Assembly (NCBI RefSeq): GCF_009372255.1
Contig: NZ_LXGN01000001.1
Coordinates: 310,001 to 374,000, forward strand
Reading direction: 5' to 3'
DNA: 64,000 bases
Origin: Acinetobacter guerrae
GTDB taxonomy: Bacteria; Pseudomonadota; Gammaproteobacteria; Pseudomonadales; Moraxellaceae
Shown here: positions 49,795 through 57,607 of the stretch, in pieces
How positions within the stretch are numbered: position 1 is the stretch's first letter
Layout: each line of letters starts with the position of its first letter
Notes under the pieces: model-generated
Database searches by the model: none
The model's input: the letters and a program-made list of their open reading frames with translations, nothing else
Told to the model about the DNA's origin: nothing
Made by a program: the position numbers and the translations under genes

Positions 49795-50406
49795 TTAAGG
49801 AATTAATCCTTCATCACGCATTGCGATATTCACAGATTGACGTTCAGCAACCTTATTACGAAGAGCAACAATATTTGTGTATGGCGTCAAATCATGTTCA
49901 ATGCCATTTGACCAATTTGTAAGCACAAATAAATAAGCATCAGCAGGGCCAAAACCATCATCTACAAGATATTCATGATCTGACTCACCAATGGCTTTAT
50001 CGATATAAGCCAACAATCGATCAATTTCAGCATAGGCTTTTTCTTTTGCTTCAGCATCCAAAGCACCACCAAAGAATACCGCATAGGCATCATGCAATTC
50101 TGAGTTTAGGTACCCTAACCATTCCAAAACTTTGGCACGACCTAAACCCGATGGTGGAATCAAGTTCTGAGCTGGATCATGCTGCGCAATAAAAGGAAGC
50201 ACTGCAACGTTTTCAGTGAGAACCAATCCTGGTGTAATTTCAAGTGCAGGGACATAACCCTTAGGATTAATTTCATAATAATCCGCACCTTTTTCAGTTT
50301 TATGTGTTTTTAGATCAACCCGTTCAAGATCAAAATCGACATTAATTTCGTTCAAAAGAATATGTGCAGCCAATGAACATGCACCAGGTGAATAATACAA
50401 CTTCAT
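49795..50406 (-). CDS. Glutathione S-transferase, GstA-like
   Basis: This 203-residue protein starts MKLYYSPGACSLAAHILLNE, the beta-class GST start with the active cysteine in GACS, and has NPKGYVPALE (cis-proline) and LTENVAVLPFIAQ as the glutathione gamma-glutamyl block. It should conjugate or reduce with glutathione; the substrate is unknown. It stands alone on the minus strand. Confidence 0.93.
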   Translation of the reverse strand: MKLYYSPGACSLAAHILLNEINVDFDLERVDLKTHKTEKGADYYEINPKGYVPALEITPGLVLTENVAVLPFIAQHDPAQNLIPPSGLGRAKVLEWLGYLNSELHDAYAVFFGGALDAEAKEKAYAEIDRLLAYIDKAIGESDHEYLVDDGFGPADAYLFVLTNWSNGIEHDLTPYTNIVALRNKVAERQSVNIAMRDEGLIP

Positions 50407-50623
50407 AGATAATCCTTGTTATAGCTCTCTTCACTGTTTTAGAACGCTTTACTCGAACTTTCAAGCTCTACCCGCTTTAAAATTTTTAAAAAACGTAACG
50501 ATCTGAAAATACTTACCATTAGACTATTGAGTAAAATGGCAACTTTTTCAAGTGAAAAACGTTGTCTTTTATAATTACCAATGTGTATGACGAAAAAATG
50601 AACTTTAGATAATTTATTTGAAC

Positions 50624-50663
50624 AAAAAAAGGAAAACCAGTCATATTGCTGTAATAGACTGGT
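50624..50663 (-). terminator. Intrinsic terminator of the mini unit
   Basis: On the minus strand ACCAGTC and GACTGGT arms with a 14-nt loop, followed by TTTTCCTTTTTTT. It directly abuts the stop codon of the 15-codon ORF and has the same stem as the adhesin terminator. Confidence 0.85.
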
Positions 50664-50711
50664 CTAAAATAACGCTGTTATTAGAATTTTATCATTATTA
50701 TAAAGTGACAT
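50664..50711 (-). CDS. 15-codon ORF of unknown status (small peptide or gene relic)
   Basis: The minus strand reads MSLYNNDKILITALF and stop. AAGGGAGAA stands right before the ATG; the Shine-Dalgarno core is closer than ideal. The ORF lies between a copy of the adhesin-promoter motif about 83 nt upstream and a terminator that starts at its stop. It could be a real leader peptide, the cover of a small RNA, or what remains of a deleted gene. It was too short for the ORF track. Confidence 0.35.
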   Translation of the reverse strand: MSLYNNDKILITALF

Positions 50712-50794
50712 TTCTCCCTTTAAACTTAAAGTGATAAGTTCTAATTAAAAACTAAAACTTAGATTCAATTTAAAGTGTTTTATATATGACGAAC

Positions 50795-50812
50795 ATCCCT
50801 GAAATTGGTGAT
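50795..50812 (-). promoter_or_regulatory. Copy of the adhesin-promoter motif upstream of the mini unit
   Basis: On the minus strand ATCACCAATTTCAGGGAT; the same 18-base site stands upstream of the adhesin gene with one change (ATCACTAATTTCAGGGAT). Confidence 0.65.
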
Positions 50813-50846
50813 TTTTACGAGATTTGAATTTTTTTTTGATCTTGTG

Positions 50847-50876
50847 ATAAAAAACCAGTCAATGTAGACTGGTTTT
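50847..50876 (-). terminator. Intrinsic terminator of the adhesin gene
   Basis: On the minus strand AAAACCAGTC and GACTGGTTTT arms with a 6-nt loop, then TT. It lies about 21 nt past the stop. Confidence 0.9.
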
Positions 50877-50897: not shown

Positions 50898-53800
50898 TTA
50901 CCAACTAAAACCTACACCGACACCACCCGAACTTTCCTCTTTACTTAGTGCTCCGCTGATACTCAAACTGGTATTTTCATTAATCATACGTTGATAGCCT
51001 ACAGCAACAGCTTGTTCCGCACCTTGCAGACCAGCCCCAACCCCAATGCGGTTCTGCCCACGCAATCCAGCCGTACTGGTCGCCATATTCATCATGGCTG
51101 CACTCATCGCGCCCTGACGGTCAAAACGTTTGTCAACCTCTTGAAAACGGCGTTCTGTTTGCAGACTATAGTCCTTAAATGTACTCTCCAAACCCGCAAA
51201 ACGAGTATCTGTATAGCTGTTTGCGCTTGAAAGGGTTTCTGAACTTGATGTATTCATTTGCGCAACATTAACGGCATCTGTGTCTGCCGTACCTGCTGCC
51301 ACATGAGTAATTTGACGTTGATTGGTCGCAGAGCCTACAGATACCGTATTGTCTCGATCTGAACTTGAATTATTGCCCAACACTACAGCATTTTTAGCAT
51401 CTGTATTGACGTTATTACCTAACACAAAGGTATTATCACCTTTCACTGTATTGTCATTGCCTACAACATAACTGCCGTTGCCACTGATCGTATTTGGATC
51501 TCCAAAGGCTCCTGATCCATTGCCAGAAACAGTATTACCAACACCCACAGCGGTTGAGTTATTCCCTGTAACCACAGTGTTTGGTCCTATTGCTGTTGAG
51601 TTTTTACCAGTTGCATTTGAACTTGTACTTGCACCAGCGCCATTTCCCCCAATACTGATATATTGTCCTGCATCTGCTACTTTTTGATCAGTATAGGATT
51701 TAGCCGTATTTAAGGTCGATGCGGTTTGTTGGTCGGTATAAGTTTTGGCATCATTCAATGCAGTTGTGGTTTGTTGATCGGTGTAGCTTTTTGAGTCATT
51801 TAAAGATTGTGAGGTTTGTTGATCTGTATAAGATTTTGCATCATTGAGATTTTTGGCATCTTGTTGGTCAATATAAGATTTTGCATTTGCCAGTGTGCCT
51901 GAGCTTTGTGTATCCGTGTAGGTATTTGCATCGGATAAAGTTTTAGCATCTTGCTGATCAACATAATTTTTTAGGTTGCTCACAGAACCTTTTAATGCGG
52001 TTAATTCATTATTCACAGCACCAAAGGTGGCACCAATATTAGAATAACTTGTGCCCTGAATCGTAAAGGTCGGTAATGTAAATACGCCATTATTGAATCC
52101 CGCTCCGCCACCTAATACAGAAGCTAATTGATTTGCGCTACTACTAAACTGCGTTGATAATGTGCTGATATTTTGATTGGTCGTATAAAGCTGCCCACCC
52201 GTAACTGCATCTTTAGAATTGCTTGAACTGATATCACCCGCTTGTAGATTGGTGAGTTTTGTTCCGCTCTGGCCCGTCAAAGTAATTGTTTCTTTTGATG
52301 AATTGTCATAAACAACAGCATTAGCCGAAATATTACCCAAACCTGTTTGTAAGGCTGAAATATTATTGGTATTTGTGGTGATTTTGCCATCTAAAACCAA
52401 ATCCTTTTGATCTGCATAACTTTTTGCATCATTTAATGTATTAGACAAACCTGTCGTTAATGCACTTGTCGATGCCTTCGTATCCAAACCTGTCGTTGCA
52501 TCATTAACTTTGCTATTTAATGCATCAAATGTAGTTTTATCAGTTTTTAAAGCTAGACCATCAGTTAAATCAGACTGTGACGCTTTTGTAGCCAAACCAG
52601 TATCTACATAGCCTTTATTAGCAGCATCTGTTGCTTGAGTTGGTGTTGCAACATTGGTAATGCGTTTTTCAGCACCACTACGACCAACGGAAATAGTATT
52701 CGCTTCATTGGCTACGGAATCATGACCTATCGCAGTTGAACCATAAGCTGTAGCCTGACTACTACTACCGAAAACACTACTATAAATAGCGGATGCCGTA
52801 TTATTTGAACCTACGGCAGTGGAAACACCACCTATTGACTTGTTTGAAACACCTAGACTTGTGCTATTTACGCCTAGCGCCTGATTGTCATAGCCCACCG
52901 CACTACTTTGAACACCTAATGCAATATTATGTGAACCAACCGCAGCACTACGATCACCAAATGCCACGGAACCACCATTGCGAAGCGTGGTTTCAAAATC
53001 TGCTACTTGTTGTGAATTTACAGATGTATCACCAATTTTGGTAATAGATGCGGTCGTTAAATTTGTTGCCTCGACTTTAATGCCATTAATAGCAGTGAGC
53101 TTTGTCCCATCATCTTCTGCATTATAGTTTTGTCCACTGGCTGCCCCCACAACGGTTGAACCACTACCTTTTGCCAAGTTTTGTGAACCTGCGGCGAAGC
53201 TCCCTGTGCCATTTGCTTTATTATAAGTACCAACCGCATTACTTCCTTTTCCAGAAACAGTATTGCTAATCCCTAAGCCAGCACTTTCATCTTGAGTAAC
53301 ATTGTTATTAAAACCGATACCAGTACTAAACACACCATTTACAGTATTTTGACTACCAATTGCGTTGGAGAACATACCGTTTGCAGTATTACTTGATCCT
53401 ATTGCATTGCTTGAGCTACCTAATGCAGTGTTTGAATTACCAAATGCGCTACTAGAATCCCCTGACGCTGTGTTACTTCTACCTACCGCACTACTAGAAT
53501 CAGCCAATGCAATATTATTAGAACCAATGGCGCTACTTAAACTAGCCATTGCCCGATTATAATCACCAATAGCACTGCTCGCCTCACCATTTGTAGTATT
53601 ATCAGAGCCGAATGCGCTACTTTGCTTTCCTTGCGCTCTGTTGGAATCACCTACAGCGCTAGCAGACTCGCCTGATGCAATGTTTGAATTACCCACAGCA
53701 TTACTCGATTCACCAGATGCAGTATTCCAATACCCTAAAGCACTACTTCCATTAGCTTCGGTTAAATTAAATCGTCCGATTGCATTACTTGCCTCACCTA

Positions 53801-54857
53801 TTGCCGTATTTCCGTCGCCCATAGCACTGCTATATTTTCCTGAAGCTTTGTTAGACGACCCTATGGCATTACTTAATAAACCAGAAGCGATATTAGAGGA
53901 TCCCATGGAGGAGCTATAAGCACCAATTGCAATATTAGCGCCTTTTTTGGCAGCATTTTTAAAAGCAGCTACTTGAGTTGGATTTGTTATAAAATTGCCA
54001 TCAGGTAATGTAATTGACGTGATATCATCGATATTGTTTGTTGTTGCGGTAACTGTAATACCCGCGACACTTGTCAGTTGCGTCCCATTACTTTCTGAAT
54101 TATAAGCTGTACCGGATGCAGCACCTAAAGCAGTATCCGTTGAACTACGGGCATAGTTATCACTTGCCACTGCTGTTGGAATGGCTGCAATTGCAGTATC
54201 AACATAGCCTTTATTAGCTGCATCTGTTGCTTGAGTTGGGGTTGCAACATTAATAATTTGACGTTGCGTAGTCGTACTTCCAACCGAAAAACTGTTATTT
54301 CTATCCGCGATAGAATTTGCGCCAATGGCGACACTATTAATTCCACTCGCTTTTGCTTGATTACCAATAGCAACATTACCAATTCTTTTTGCAACAGCAT
54401 CTGTTCCGATCGCCACTCCGCTTACCGCCGCCGCCGCACCACCAATTGCCACAGCATGATCTAATGCCAGAGTGAGATTTGTACAATCCCCCCCAATTGC
54501 TATAGCACCATCAACAGGGTTTGAAAATCCAACAATTGCAGACATAGAGCCTGCAGAAGTTAACCCTAACTGACCATCTATATCTTCTATAAAGTCAGCA
54601 GCAGTAACAGAAGTAGGACAACTCACACCTTGAACAATATTCCCTGCCCAAACATTAGCACCGATAATGGTTGCAATACTTAAAACCAGAGTTTGCAAAC
54701 CAAATATCCGACGTTTACTTATATCTATAGTTAAAACCTCAGAACTAGCCATTGCCCCAGTGATATGATCGGTTTTCCCTGCACTTTTAGCATTTTCCGA
54801 AACCACCACCATCTGCCCCAGTGATTTATTCCAGATCAGTTTAAAAATCTTGTTCAT
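50898..54857 (-). CDS. Trimeric autotransporter adhesin (YadA-like)
   Basis: This 1319-residue protein is a type Vc autotransporter. It begins with an extended signal peptide region (MNKIFKLIWNKSLGQMVVVSE, an ESPR) and a hydrophobic core ending near NVWAGN. A large head of YadA-type repeats (AIGSSNTASG-like units) follows, with necks (ATDAANKGYVDT), coiled-coil stalk repeats (NDAKSYTDQQ) and a smaller second head near the C-terminus. The last 70 or so residues (FQEVDKRFDRQGAMSAAMMN to GVGVGFSW) are the YadA anchor. Three chains should form one fibre at the cell surface that binds host or abiotic surfaces. GGGGATGGACAT precedes the ATG. It is divergent from a two-component pair. Confidence 0.96.
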   Translation of the reverse strand: MNKIFKLIWNKSLGQMVVVSENAKSAGKTDHITGAMASSEVLTIDISKRRIFGLQTLVLSIATIIGANVWAGNIVQGVSCPTSVTAADFIEDIDGQLGLTSAGSMSAIVGFSNPVDGAIAIGGDCTNLTLALDHAVAIGGAAAAVSGVAIGTDAVAKRIGNVAIGNQAKASGINSVAIGANSIADRNNSFSVGSTTTQRQIINVATPTQATDAANKGYVDTAIAAIPTAVASDNYARSSTDTALGAASGTAYNSESNGTQLTSVAGITVTATTNNIDDITSITLPDGNFITNPTQVAAFKNAAKKGANIAIGAYSSSMGSSNIASGLLSNAIGSSNKASGKYSSAMGDGNTAIGEASNAIGRFNLTEANGSSALGYWNTASGESSNAVGNSNIASGESASAVGDSNRAQGKQSSAFGSDNTTNGEASSAIGDYNRAMASLSSAIGSNNIALADSSSAVGRSNTASGDSSSAFGNSNTALGSSSNAIGSSNTANGMFSNAIGSQNTVNGVFSTGIGFNNNVTQDESAGLGISNTVSGKGSNAVGTYNKANGTGSFAAGSQNLAKGSGSTVVGAASGQNYNAEDDGTKLTAINGIKVEATNLTTASITKIGDTSVNSQQVADFETTLRNGGSVAFGDRSAAVGSHNIALGVQSSAVGYDNQALGVNSTSLGVSNKSIGGVSTAVGSNNTASAIYSSVFGSSSQATAYGSTAIGHDSVANEANTISVGRSGAEKRITNVATPTQATDAANKGYVDTGLATKASQSDLTDGLALKTDKTTFDALNSKVNDATTGLDTKASTSALTTGLSNTLNDAKSYADQKDLVLDGKITTNTNNISALQTGLGNISANAVVYDNSSKETITLTGQSGTKLTNLQAGDISSSNSKDAVTGGQLYTTNQNISTLSTQFSSSANQLASVLGGGAGFNNGVFTLPTFTIQGTSYSNIGATFGAVNNELTALKGSVSNLKNYVDQQDAKTLSDANTYTDTQSSGTLANAKSYIDQQDAKNLNDAKSYTDQQTSQSLNDSKSYTDQQTTTALNDAKTYTDQQTASTLNTAKSYTDQKVADAGQYISIGGNGAGASTSSNATGKNSTAIGPNTVVTGNNSTAVGVGNTVSGNGSGAFGDPNTISGNGSYVVGNDNTVKGDNTFVLGNNVNTDAKNAVVLGNNSSSDRDNTVSVGSATNQRQITHVAAGTADTDAVNVAQMNTSSSETLSSANSYTDTRFAGLESTFKDYSLQTERRFQEVDKRFDRQGAMSAAMMNMATSTAGLRGQNRIGVGAGLQGAEQAVAVGYQRMINENTSLSISGALSKEESSGGVGVGFSW

Positions 54858-54924: not shown

Positions 54925-54973
54925 TTTTCCAATATCCCTGAAATTAGTGATATTTTTGTTGTCTATTGGAAAA
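54925..54973. repeat. Inverted repeat in the adhesin/regulator divergent promoter
   Basis: TTTTCCAATA and TATTGGAAAA are perfect 10-bp arms with 29 nt between them. They interleave with the two CAGGGAT motif copies. Confidence 0.75.
54934..54951 (-). promoter_or_regulatory. Adhesin-promoter motif (candidate regulator site)
   Basis: On the minus strand ATCACTAATTTCAGGGAT, about 76 nt upstream of the adhesin start. It matches the site at 50795-50812 at 17 of 18 bases. Confidence 0.65.
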
Positions 54974-54975
54974 TA

Positions 54976-54990
54976 CCCAATCTCAGGGAT
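54976..54990 (+). promoter_or_regulatory. Third motif copy, upstream of the response regulator gene
   Basis: On the plus strand CCCAATCTCAGGGAT, 38 nt before the response regulator start, in the same relative orientation as at the other two units. TATAAA follows at once and could be the -10 element. Confidence 0.6.
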
Positions 54991-55028: not shown

Positions 55029-55736
55029 ATGAATCTTTTGAGTAATGTAATGCTGGATCCAGACTTGGTTTTACCTGTACCCGTCATTGTGGTTGAGGAT
55101 GAACCACTCATTCAAAAAAGGCTAAAAGAAATATTATTAGGTATTGGCTATTTACCAGAAAATCTTATTTTTGCACAAACTTTAGCTCAAGCTCATGAAC
55201 AACTGAAACAACATTCTGCATCTTTGGCGTTGGTTGATTTAGGCTTACCTGATGGCAACGGTATAGATTTTATCAAACAACTAAAAATATATGACCCAAC
55301 CATCGCGATTTTAGTCATCTCGGCATGGAGTACGGAGGATGCGATTTTAAATGCACTGATAGCAGGTGCAACGGGCTATGTACTTAAAGAACGTGATGAT
55401 ATTGAAGTCGCCCTATCTATCCGTAGTATTTTACGTGGTGGCGCGCCTATCGACCCTTTTATCGCTCGTCAAATCTTAAAACAACTTCCTTCATCTAATG
55501 AACACATTGAGAAAAAAAATATTGAAAATGAGATAGATGACGCTTTACTTTCCAAACGTGAACATGAAATATTATTACTGGTTGCGCAAGGTTTAAGTAA
55601 TAAAGAAATTGCCAGCCAGATCAATTTGTCACGTTATACGGTTGAGTCTCATATCAAGCACATTTATCGGAAACTTGCAGTATGTACACGCATCAAGGCA
55701 GTCGATACTGCAAGATCACTTGGTTTGCTCGATTAA
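55029..55736 (+). CDS. LuxR/NarL-type response regulator
   Basis: This 235-residue protein has a receiver domain (VIVVEDEPLIQKRL with the acidic pair; LALVDLGLPDGNG with the phosphoacceptor Asp; YVLKERDD with the conserved Lys) and a C-terminal helix-turn-helix (LSKREHEILLLVAQGLSNKEIASQINLSRYTVESHIKHIYRKL) of the NarL/LuxR class. AGGGGAAGAA precedes the ATG. The cognate kinase gene overlaps its 3' end. It probably controls the divergent adhesin gene. Confidence 0.95.
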   Translation: MNLLSNVMLDPDLVLPVPVIVVEDEPLIQKRLKEILLGIGYLPENLIFAQTLAQAHEQLKQHSASLALVDLGLPDGNGIDFIKQLKIYDPTIAILVISAWSTEDAILNALIAGATGYVLKERDDIEVALSIRSILRGGAPIDPFIARQILKQLPSSNEHIEKKNIENEIDDALLSKREHEILLLVAQGLSNKEIASQINLSRYTVESHIKHIYRKLAVCTRIKAVDTARSLGLLD

Positions 55737-57607
55737 AATCTTTTTTTTCTTGCTGCTTATTTATGTTAGTTGGCAGTATTGCTCAAATTCATGCCTCATC
55801 ATTGAATGAATTGGTATTGCTCCCCAAAGACCATAACTGCCATGTCAATATCATCAATATTCAATCTATTCAAACCTCTCCAGACACCCAGATTAGCGAT
55901 ATAAATAAACTTACTAATTGGCAAACGGTAAAATTACCTGATTTTTGGGAAAATCGTTGGAAAAATTATTCTGGTATAGTTTGGTATCGCATTTTATGGT
56001 CAAAAGCCTGTCAAACTTCTCAGACTGAACCACTTGCCTTAAATATTGACAGTATCAATATGGCAGGAGAAGTTTATTTAAATAAACAATTGATTTGGCG
56101 CGATAAAAATCTGACCGAACCTTTAAGTCGTAGTTGGAATATGCCGCGCTATTGGGTTTTACCCAATTCAGAGCTTAAACAAGGTGAAAACGAATTTTTG
56201 ATTCGGGTTGTAGGCATCTCTACACAAAGTCCTGGTTTAGGCAAAGTTTATATTGGTACTCCACATGCGATTATTGAACAAAATTCAAAATATGTATTTG
56301 AACATCGCACGCTGTATTTTATTAATTTAGTTATTTCCCTAACGCTTGGTGCTATTGCTTTTCTAGTGTGGCTGCTGCGTAGAAAAGACTCAACCTTTGG
56401 TTGGTTTGCTTTGGCTTCTTTGCTATGGGGACTTTTTATTAGCAATATTTTAGCCACCGAAACTTATCCATTTTTATATACGCTGCAACTTGCTAAGATT
56501 AATATGTTGTTTCTAGTGGGTTATGTGATTTCTTTTACAATTTACACGTGGCGTTTTGCAGGGAAAAAATATAAAAAGATCGAAAATTTGCTTTGGCTAA
56601 CTGGCTTCATCGGTGGTGTAGGACTATTTATAGCACCGTCTTCGTACATAGGGCTTATTCTTTTTCTTCTCTTTTTGTTTGTAACCATTGTATTTTTAGC
56701 CTGCTGTATTTTTTATCAATGGATTGCTTATAAAACACCTAAAGCAGATATCCGTTTCCTTGCCCTAATTTTACTTGGTTTTATTGGGATCAATATCCAT
56801 GACGTTTATCTGATTTTGACTCAAAATACTGAACATACTTATATTACCCCTTTTGCAGCACCATTAACTGCATTAGCTATTTCTATGATATTGGCTTGGC
56901 GGATTGCACAAAACGTTAATCATATTGAAGAATTTAATCAAACATTGACACAAAGCGTAGAGCGAGTTAGCGCCGATTTAAAAAATTCTTTAGATAAAAA
57001 GCATCAACTTGAAATCGAAAATATGCGTTTGCAGGAACGGCTCAGCCTTTCTCATGAACTACATGATGGCTTAGGCGGCTCTTTGGTACGTTCCATGATT
57101 TTAGTCGATAAAAGTGATGATATTGATAAACAACATTTTTTATCAATTTTAAAACTTTTACGTAATGATTTACGCCAAGTCATCGACAGTGGCTCTACAA
57201 TTGGCGCAAAAGTTCCAGAATCACCCATTGTTTGGGCATCCTCAATTCGTAGGAGGTTTGTACAGCTTTTTGAAGAACTTGAAATTGAATCAAAATGGCA
57301 ATTGCCCAATCATTGGCTCACACAACCAACAGCCTTGCAATGCCTAACGCTTGCACGTGTCGCCGAAGAAGCATTGACCAATATTATTAAACACAGTCAT
57401 GCAACATTGGTTAAAGTCAGTTTATCTCAGGAAGATCAACAATTAATCCTTGAAATTGAAGATAATGGCATTGGTTTTGATCCACTTACTGTTCAAGAAG
57501 GCTTACATGTTGGCTTGCAAAGTATGCAGATCAGGGTTCATCGTATTGGGGGAAATTTTGAAATTTATTCTAAAACAGGACAAACCCTGATTCGAGTCAA
57601 ATTATAA
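55682..57607 (+). CDS. Sensor histidine kinase, 7TM with DISM-like extracellular domain
   Basis: This 641-residue protein has a signal-anchor (FFSCCLFMLVGSIAQIHASS), an extracellular domain of about 170 residues with a jelly-roll pattern (GIVWYRILW, VYLNKQLIWRD, ENEFLIRVVG), about seven membrane segments, a coiled coil, the HisKA_3 box LSHELHDGLGGSLVRS with the phosphoacceptor His, and an HATPase domain (AEEALTNIIKHSHA, EIEDNGIGFDP). The extracellular form resembles 7TMR-DISM domains that sense small ligands, perhaps carbohydrate. The gene starts inside the regulator gene (55-nt overlap); no other in-frame start gives a full signal segment. Confidence 0.9.
   Translation: MYTHQGSRYCKITWFARLKSFFSCCLFMLVGSIAQIHASSLNELVLLPKDHNCHVNIINIQSIQTSPDTQISDINKLTNWQTVKLPDFWENRWKNYSGIVWYRILWSKACQTSQTEPLALNIDSINMAGEVYLNKQLIWRDKNLTEPLSRSWNMPRYWVLPNSELKQGENEFLIRVVGISTQSPGLGKVYIGTPHAIIEQNSKYVFEHRTLYFINLVISLTLGAIAFLVWLLRRKDSTFGWFALASLLWGLFISNILATETYPFLYTLQLAKINMLFLVGYVISFTIYTWRFAGKKYKKIENLLWLTGFIGGVGLFIAPSSYIGLILFLLFLFVTIVFLACCIFYQWIAYKTPKADIRFLALILLGFIGINIHDVYLILTQNTEHTYITPFAAPLTALAISMILAWRIAQNVNHIEEFNQTLTQSVERVSADLKNSLDKKHQLEIENMRLQERLSLSHELHDGLGGSLVRSMILVDKSDDIDKQHFLSILKLLRNDLRQVIDSGSTIGAKVPESPIVWASSIRRRFVQLFEELEIESKWQLPNHWLTQPTALQCLTLARVAEEALTNIIKHSHATLVKVSLSQEDQQLILEIEDNGIGFDPLTVQEGLHVGLQSMQIRVHRIGGNFEIYSKTGQTLIRVKL

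Follow-up and report, generated by a model that had tools for sequence, protein, structure and literature searches.

A short stretch beside a large adhesin gene raises the question of what a transcription unit may be for when it holds little besides a promoter motif, a 15-codon open reading frame (ORF) and a terminator. The window (the whole 64,000-nt stretch of DNA analysed here) is from the genome of an Acinetobacter close to A. ursingii, and on its minus strand, next to the adhesin gene, this mini unit runs from the motif through a Shine-Dalgarno (SD)-like site and the ORF to an intrinsic terminator. An earlier note took it either for a small RNA or peptide gene that shares the control of the adhesin, or for the emptied shell of a deleted gene. 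The reading that we favor, and to which we give about even weight, is that it is a lineage-restricted small RNA gene in the regulon of a LuxR-type regulator, with an RNA of about 140 nt that would be under selection and would most likely act as a pairing regulator. Binding of the regulator, production of the RNA and its action by pairing are all three things that we infer. The parts of the unit are these:

50794..50816, minus strand: putative response-regulator binding site, AAAAATCACCAATTTCAGGGATG, invariant at 23 of 23 positions in three species; its only other exact copies in the genome are the two between the adhesin and regulator genes
50769..50774, minus strand: candidate -10 element, TTTAAA (TATACA in A. 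ursingii), placed by inference from the alignment
50735..50761, minus strand: predicted 5' hairpin of the transcript, 12 bp, from RNA folds of the window and A. ursingii, with a weaker counterpart in S54
50699..50721, minus strand: conserved SD-ATG block AAAGGGAGAAATGTCACTTTATA, containing the SD-like GGGAG and the ATG, 21 of 23 positions invariant in three species as against 46% in the preceding leader (permutation p 0.003)
50664..50711, minus strand: 15-codon ORF MSLYNNDKILITALF, read from the sequence, with its stop TAG at 50666-50664
50676..50687, minus strand: second conserved block ATTCTAATAACA, 12 of 12 positions invariant in three species
50624..50663, minus strand: intrinsic terminator from the RNA fold, with the hairpin at 50663-50636 and a T-rich tail; the inner stem TATT/AATA is kept and the loop varies

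The motif, the SD-like sequence with its ATG, the 15-codon ORF and the abutting terminator with its T run all lie, to the base, where the earlier note had read them. The ribosome-site-like sequence is AGGGAGAA, with AAGGGAGAA directly before the ATG at 50711, and the terminator hairpin ACCAGTC-TATT-ACAGC-AATA-T-GACTGGT abuts the stop of the ORF and is followed by TTTTCCTTTTTTT. If 50769..50774 is the -10 element, transcription could possibly start near 50763. The mini terminator was missed by a simple terminator scan because its loop is 14 nt long; it was recovered when loops of 3-16 were allowed, and it is visible in the RNA fold. As in a small RNA gene, the unit thus ends in a hairpin with a U tail, of which the stem is kept in three species. 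Judged by the rarity of the motif, the rarity of the terminator stem and the block-wise conserved recurrence in two other species, the features of the mini unit exceed what would be expected by chance.

The neighborhood contains the following features:

50898..54857, minus strand: trimeric autotransporter adhesin of 1319 aa (ESPR, YadA head, stalk and anchor; Pfam)
50854..50873, minus strand: adhesin terminator with an ACCAGTC/GACTGGT stem, the partner in the Axc73 deletion described below (sequence comparison)
54934..54951, minus strand: copy of the motif, an exact match, 76 nt upstream of the adhesin ATG
54973..54990, minus strand (matched direction): copy of the motif before the response-regulator gene, in inverted orientation, an exact match to the degenerate motif
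55029..55736, plus strand: LuxR/NarL-type response regulator, the putative regulator of the mini unit (Pfam Response_reg and GerE; motif beside orthologues at several other loci)
55682..57607, plus strand: sensor histidine kinase, partner of the response regulator (7TMR-DISM and HATPase_c; Pfam)
49795-50406, minus strand: GST-like gene, 230 nt downstream of the mini unit

The 3.42-Mb genome contains just three exact matches to the 18-nt motif, every one of them at the adhesin locus (mini unit, adhesin and response regulator), and the sole match with one mismatch precedes by 77 nt a second adhesin gene (TpsA-like, with ESPR and TPS domain). This confinement to the mini unit, the regulator and the two adhesins means that the motif is no generic promoter element and is probably where the adjacent LuxR-type response regulator binds. 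Copies that differ at one position or none stand upstream of ESPR adhesins in Acinetobacter genomes G127 and G104, and related sites adjoin orthologues of the response regulator as far as Achromobacter. Measured from the end of GGGAT to the ATG, the distance is 83 nt at the mini unit and 76 nt at the adhesin, as the earlier note had counted, and the exact motif, invariant at 23 of 23 positions in three species, therefore has at the mini unit the promoter position of a regulon member. The second ESPR/TPS adhesin is a probable further member; it lies outside the window, at genome place G000:C1:274863 (locus L175, motif at 1864-1881 and gene at 2-1786).

Some further motif-like sites are recorded here as side observations. 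One copy in G127 is upstream of a secreted calcineurin-like phosphoesterase (L178, 7338-7406). A near-motif in two further Acinetobacter species (L148 and L164, around position 1501) precedes a conserved 29-codon ORF by about 57 nt (counted in L148, where the ORF reads MLIYFVLMLCGSLLAKVIAQYDNTVPYRP), near a TerC-like gene; this may be a further small gene, or the motif may have arisen by chance. The intergenic region beside a ThiE-like gene (L191, 1300-1760) holds a pair of motif-like sites separated by about 200 nt, with orthologous places in about ten species.

The terminator provides a second tie to the adhesin. Only three sites in the genome have a hairpin with the ACCAGTC/GACTGGT stem, and two of these lie here, 190 nt apart; the adhesin terminator (50873-50854) does carry the same 7-bp stem, an identity that the earlier note had pointed out. 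When the stem is counted together with a T tail, genomes of the genus have about 0-4 such places each, and a reversed-pattern control gives counts close to zero. The rarity of the stem and the closeness of its two copies suggest, short of proof, that the mini and adhesin terminators share an origin, and the mini unit, or its terminator, may have begun as a duplication of the ends of the adhesin gene. The third such terminator in the genome is behind a fimbrial subunit gene (L176, 699-1271).

The mini unit is present in three of 176 Acinetobacter species genomes (that of the window, A. ursingii DSM 16037 and Acinetobacter sp. S54), with agreement between BLAST and a covariance model, and neither found a homologue outside the A. 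ursingii group among the 176. The covariance search gave three hits with E below 1e-36, and the next best had 0.013. The earlier note had named absence of motif and terminator from related strains as evidence against its reading; the comparison finds both in two more species, one sister strain having lost them. In that sister, WU_MDCI_Axc73, the adhesin terminator passes straight into sequence that elsewhere lies downstream of the mini terminator, and the junction falls within the shared TGACTGGTTTT, so that a segment of about 220 nt between two short direct repeats has gone. Axc73 thus lost the mini unit by a clean deletion between two look-alike terminators. In a tree of neighboring genes Axc73 stands beside A. 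ursingii, with the window and S54 outside that pair; the common ancestor therefore had the unit and Axc73 lost it, and because of this loss it must be dispensable. The interval between the mini terminator and the GST-like gene (50410-50635 of the window) shows strong conservation, Axc73 included, and is probably the GST promoter or some other element.

Conservation within the unit is arranged in blocks. The columns invariant in the three species number 23 of 23 in the motif, 34 of 74 (46%) in the leader, 21 of 23 in the SD-ATG block, 4 of 10 in the middle, 12 of 12 in the second block and 21 of 28 in the hairpin, with 13 of 44 (30%) in the spacer before the motif. When the columns between motif and terminator are shuffled, the density of the SD-ATG block is reached with p 0.003 (densest 22-column stretch), although these statistics are thin because there are only three homologues.

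This arrangement bears on the proposal that a duplicated copy of the adhesin, or of its control ends, lost its body and left a functionless promoter, start, stop and terminator. Both ends of the unit do resemble those of the adhesin gene and share a stem that is rare in the genome, the regulon includes several large ESPR adhesins, and Axc73 shows that recombination between these terminators occurs. However, the unit has the same small size in all three species, which span the deepest split of the group, its inner blocks are conserved where the adjacent leader and spacer fall to 46% and 30%, no adhesin coding remnant is seen between motif and terminator, and the two promoters are unlike each other beyond the motif. 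Neither a recognizable gene body nor neutral decay is found, and we regard such an origin without present function as quite unlikely. The earlier note's emptied shell is hard to sustain as a recent event, because A. ursingii and S54 already have the unit at this size, and two of its inner blocks are kept while the leader diverges.

The ORF itself fares differently from the blocks in which it is embedded. Its counterparts encode MSLYNYDNILITALF in A. ursingii and MTLYKNSDILITTYFEPVY in S54. In the first 12 codons S54 differs from either other species by seven substitutions, of which six or seven are in residue-changing codons and none or one is synonymous, and a 1-nt gap in S54 shifts the frame at the 3' end such that the ORF stops inside the terminator loop, with a different length and C-terminus. 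The mostly non-synonymous changes and the frame shift indicate that the peptide is not what is conserved, and purifying selection on amino acids is not seen. That the unit encodes a functional micropeptide of 15-19 residues, produced along with the adhesin, is thus very doubtful in our judgment, although the SD-like sequence and ATG are conserved in three species and the residues LY and ILIT are kept; the codons that are kept lack synonymous wobble changes, which suggests constraint on the RNA. Blocks like these would not be expected to survive in a decaying remnant, and a peptide under selection should show synonymous variation; selection at the RNA level fits the conservation of the mini unit best, in that three sequences display conserved blocks, non-synonymous changes and the S54 frame shift. 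Of the earlier proposal of a small RNA or peptide gene under shared control, the shared control is thus supported by motif conservation and regulon context and the small RNA by the block-wise conservation, whereas a conserved peptide finds no support.

Two other explanations need to be considered. That the unit is a DNA element only, an extra site for the regulator serving as a decoy or as a looping partner of the adhesin promoter and giving no meaningful transcript, is in keeping with the motif being its best conserved part, but this would leave the conserved SD-ATG block, the second block and the terminator unexplained, and we consider it highly improbable. A point against the RNA gene that we favor is that the most conserved block holds the SD and start codon, a hint of translation; the loss in Axc73, and the weak fold in S54, the missing Rfam match and the lack of a shared target described below, also count against it. 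It is conceivable, if unlikely, that translation of the short ORF matters and its peptide does not, as in a leader/attenuator or a dual-function RNA, where a finishing ribosome would cover the left arm of the terminator stem, or open it, and transcription would run on toward the GST-like gene. The SD and ATG within the most conserved block, the variable peptide, the ending of the ORF at or inside the terminator in all three species (inside the loop in S54) and the position of the GST-like gene 230 nt downstream on the same strand are all consistent with this model. Nonetheless, 230 nt is a long distance for a leader, the well conserved region upstream of the GST-like gene resembles a promoter of its own, and both that region and the gene are kept in Axc73, which is without the mini unit.

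The predicted transcript folds better than shuffled sequences in two of the three species (z -2.6 and -3.5) and little better in S54 (z -1.2). The 5' hairpin is predicted in all three when that part is folded alone, although the best fold of the whole S54 transcript is without it. No Rfam family matched at its gathering score in the window, the best local score being 21 bits against a cut-off near 50. A CsrB/RsmY-type RNA was rejected by inspection, there being a single GGA in the window's transcript.

In the small RNA model that we favor, the active LuxR-type response regulator (with its histidine kinase) would bind the motif and switch on the adhesin and the mini unit together. The RNA of about 140 nt would comprise the 5' hairpin, the conserved single-stranded AGGGAGAAAUGnCACUUUAUAA, a second short conserved stretch and the terminator hairpin with its U tail, and would itself be the product under selection; as a small regulatory RNA acting by base pairing, it would tune envelope or adhesion genes in step with the adhesin. 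The short ORF may be translated, with its peptide sequence not being the conserved thing.

A search of four genomes with the complements of both conserved blocks gave the unit itself or unrelated coding places that are not common as gene starts, and for the complement of the first block no genomic match other than the unit itself is common to all three genomes. In its own genome the conserved block has a predicted pairing of 13 contiguous bp, one of them G-U, with the motif-bearing TpsA-like adhesin, at codons 5-9 of its ESPR-coding region, and when pairing was compared with leaders of regulon and neighboring genes only this TpsA stood out (-23.0 kcal/mol, z -2.25), a weak result because it is the best of 12 tested. 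Neither A. ursingii nor S54 yielded a TpsA orthologue, though both keep the same block, and the other ESPR genes found pair with the block over 9 bp at most, so the TpsA pairing cannot explain the conservation and was rejected as its cause. The 13-bp pairing would be a lead at most. We would regard it as a very long shot that the RNA, co-produced with the adhesin, serves specifically to hold back competing ESPR adhesins after transcription, with one regulator starting several adhesins and the small RNA that decides between them.

Two-component systems controlling small RNAs for surface structures are well described, including those of OmrA/B, LhrC and RsmY/Z (PMC7602753). OmrA and OmrB of E. 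coli are under EnvZ-OmpR and belong to envelope and biofilm circuits (PMC7602753); like them, the mini unit is short, with its own predicted regulated promoter and intrinsic terminator in a two-component regulon for surface structures, but its regulator is of the LuxR/NarL and not the OmpR type, it is without an Rfam match to a known family, and it is a small RNA gene by prediction. In Listeria, LisK-LisR controls the LhrC small RNAs, by which the adhesin LapB is repressed (PMC7602753). The mini unit is similarly a predicted response-regulator-controlled small RNA linked to an adhesin, although LhrC is a multicopy family and the mini unit is single, and its link to the adhesin is through predicted shared control. 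GacA and UvrY are LuxR/NarL-type regulators, and RsmY, RsmZ and CsrB-type RNAs titrate CsrA via many GGA motifs. These RNAs are switched on by GacA/UvrY (PMC7602753), and the mini unit resembles them as a small RNA gene presumably under a LuxR/NarL-type response regulator, but its RNA has a single AGGGA. Within the same genus, sRNA 13573 of A. baumannii ATCC 17978 has a role in biofilm and attachment (PMC5538643); the mini unit is likewise a candidate small RNA linked to attachment, although in a different species, and the likeness is one of description.

A 15-codon ORF beside a terminator can pass for a peptide gene or a fossil, and here the species comparison points to an RNA. The natural deletion in Axc73 offers a ready comparison for the mini unit. 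If the RNA is made, a little-studied two-component system of the A. ursingii group would be tied to both surface adhesins and a small RNA, and the motif would give a handle on the whole regulon across the genus.
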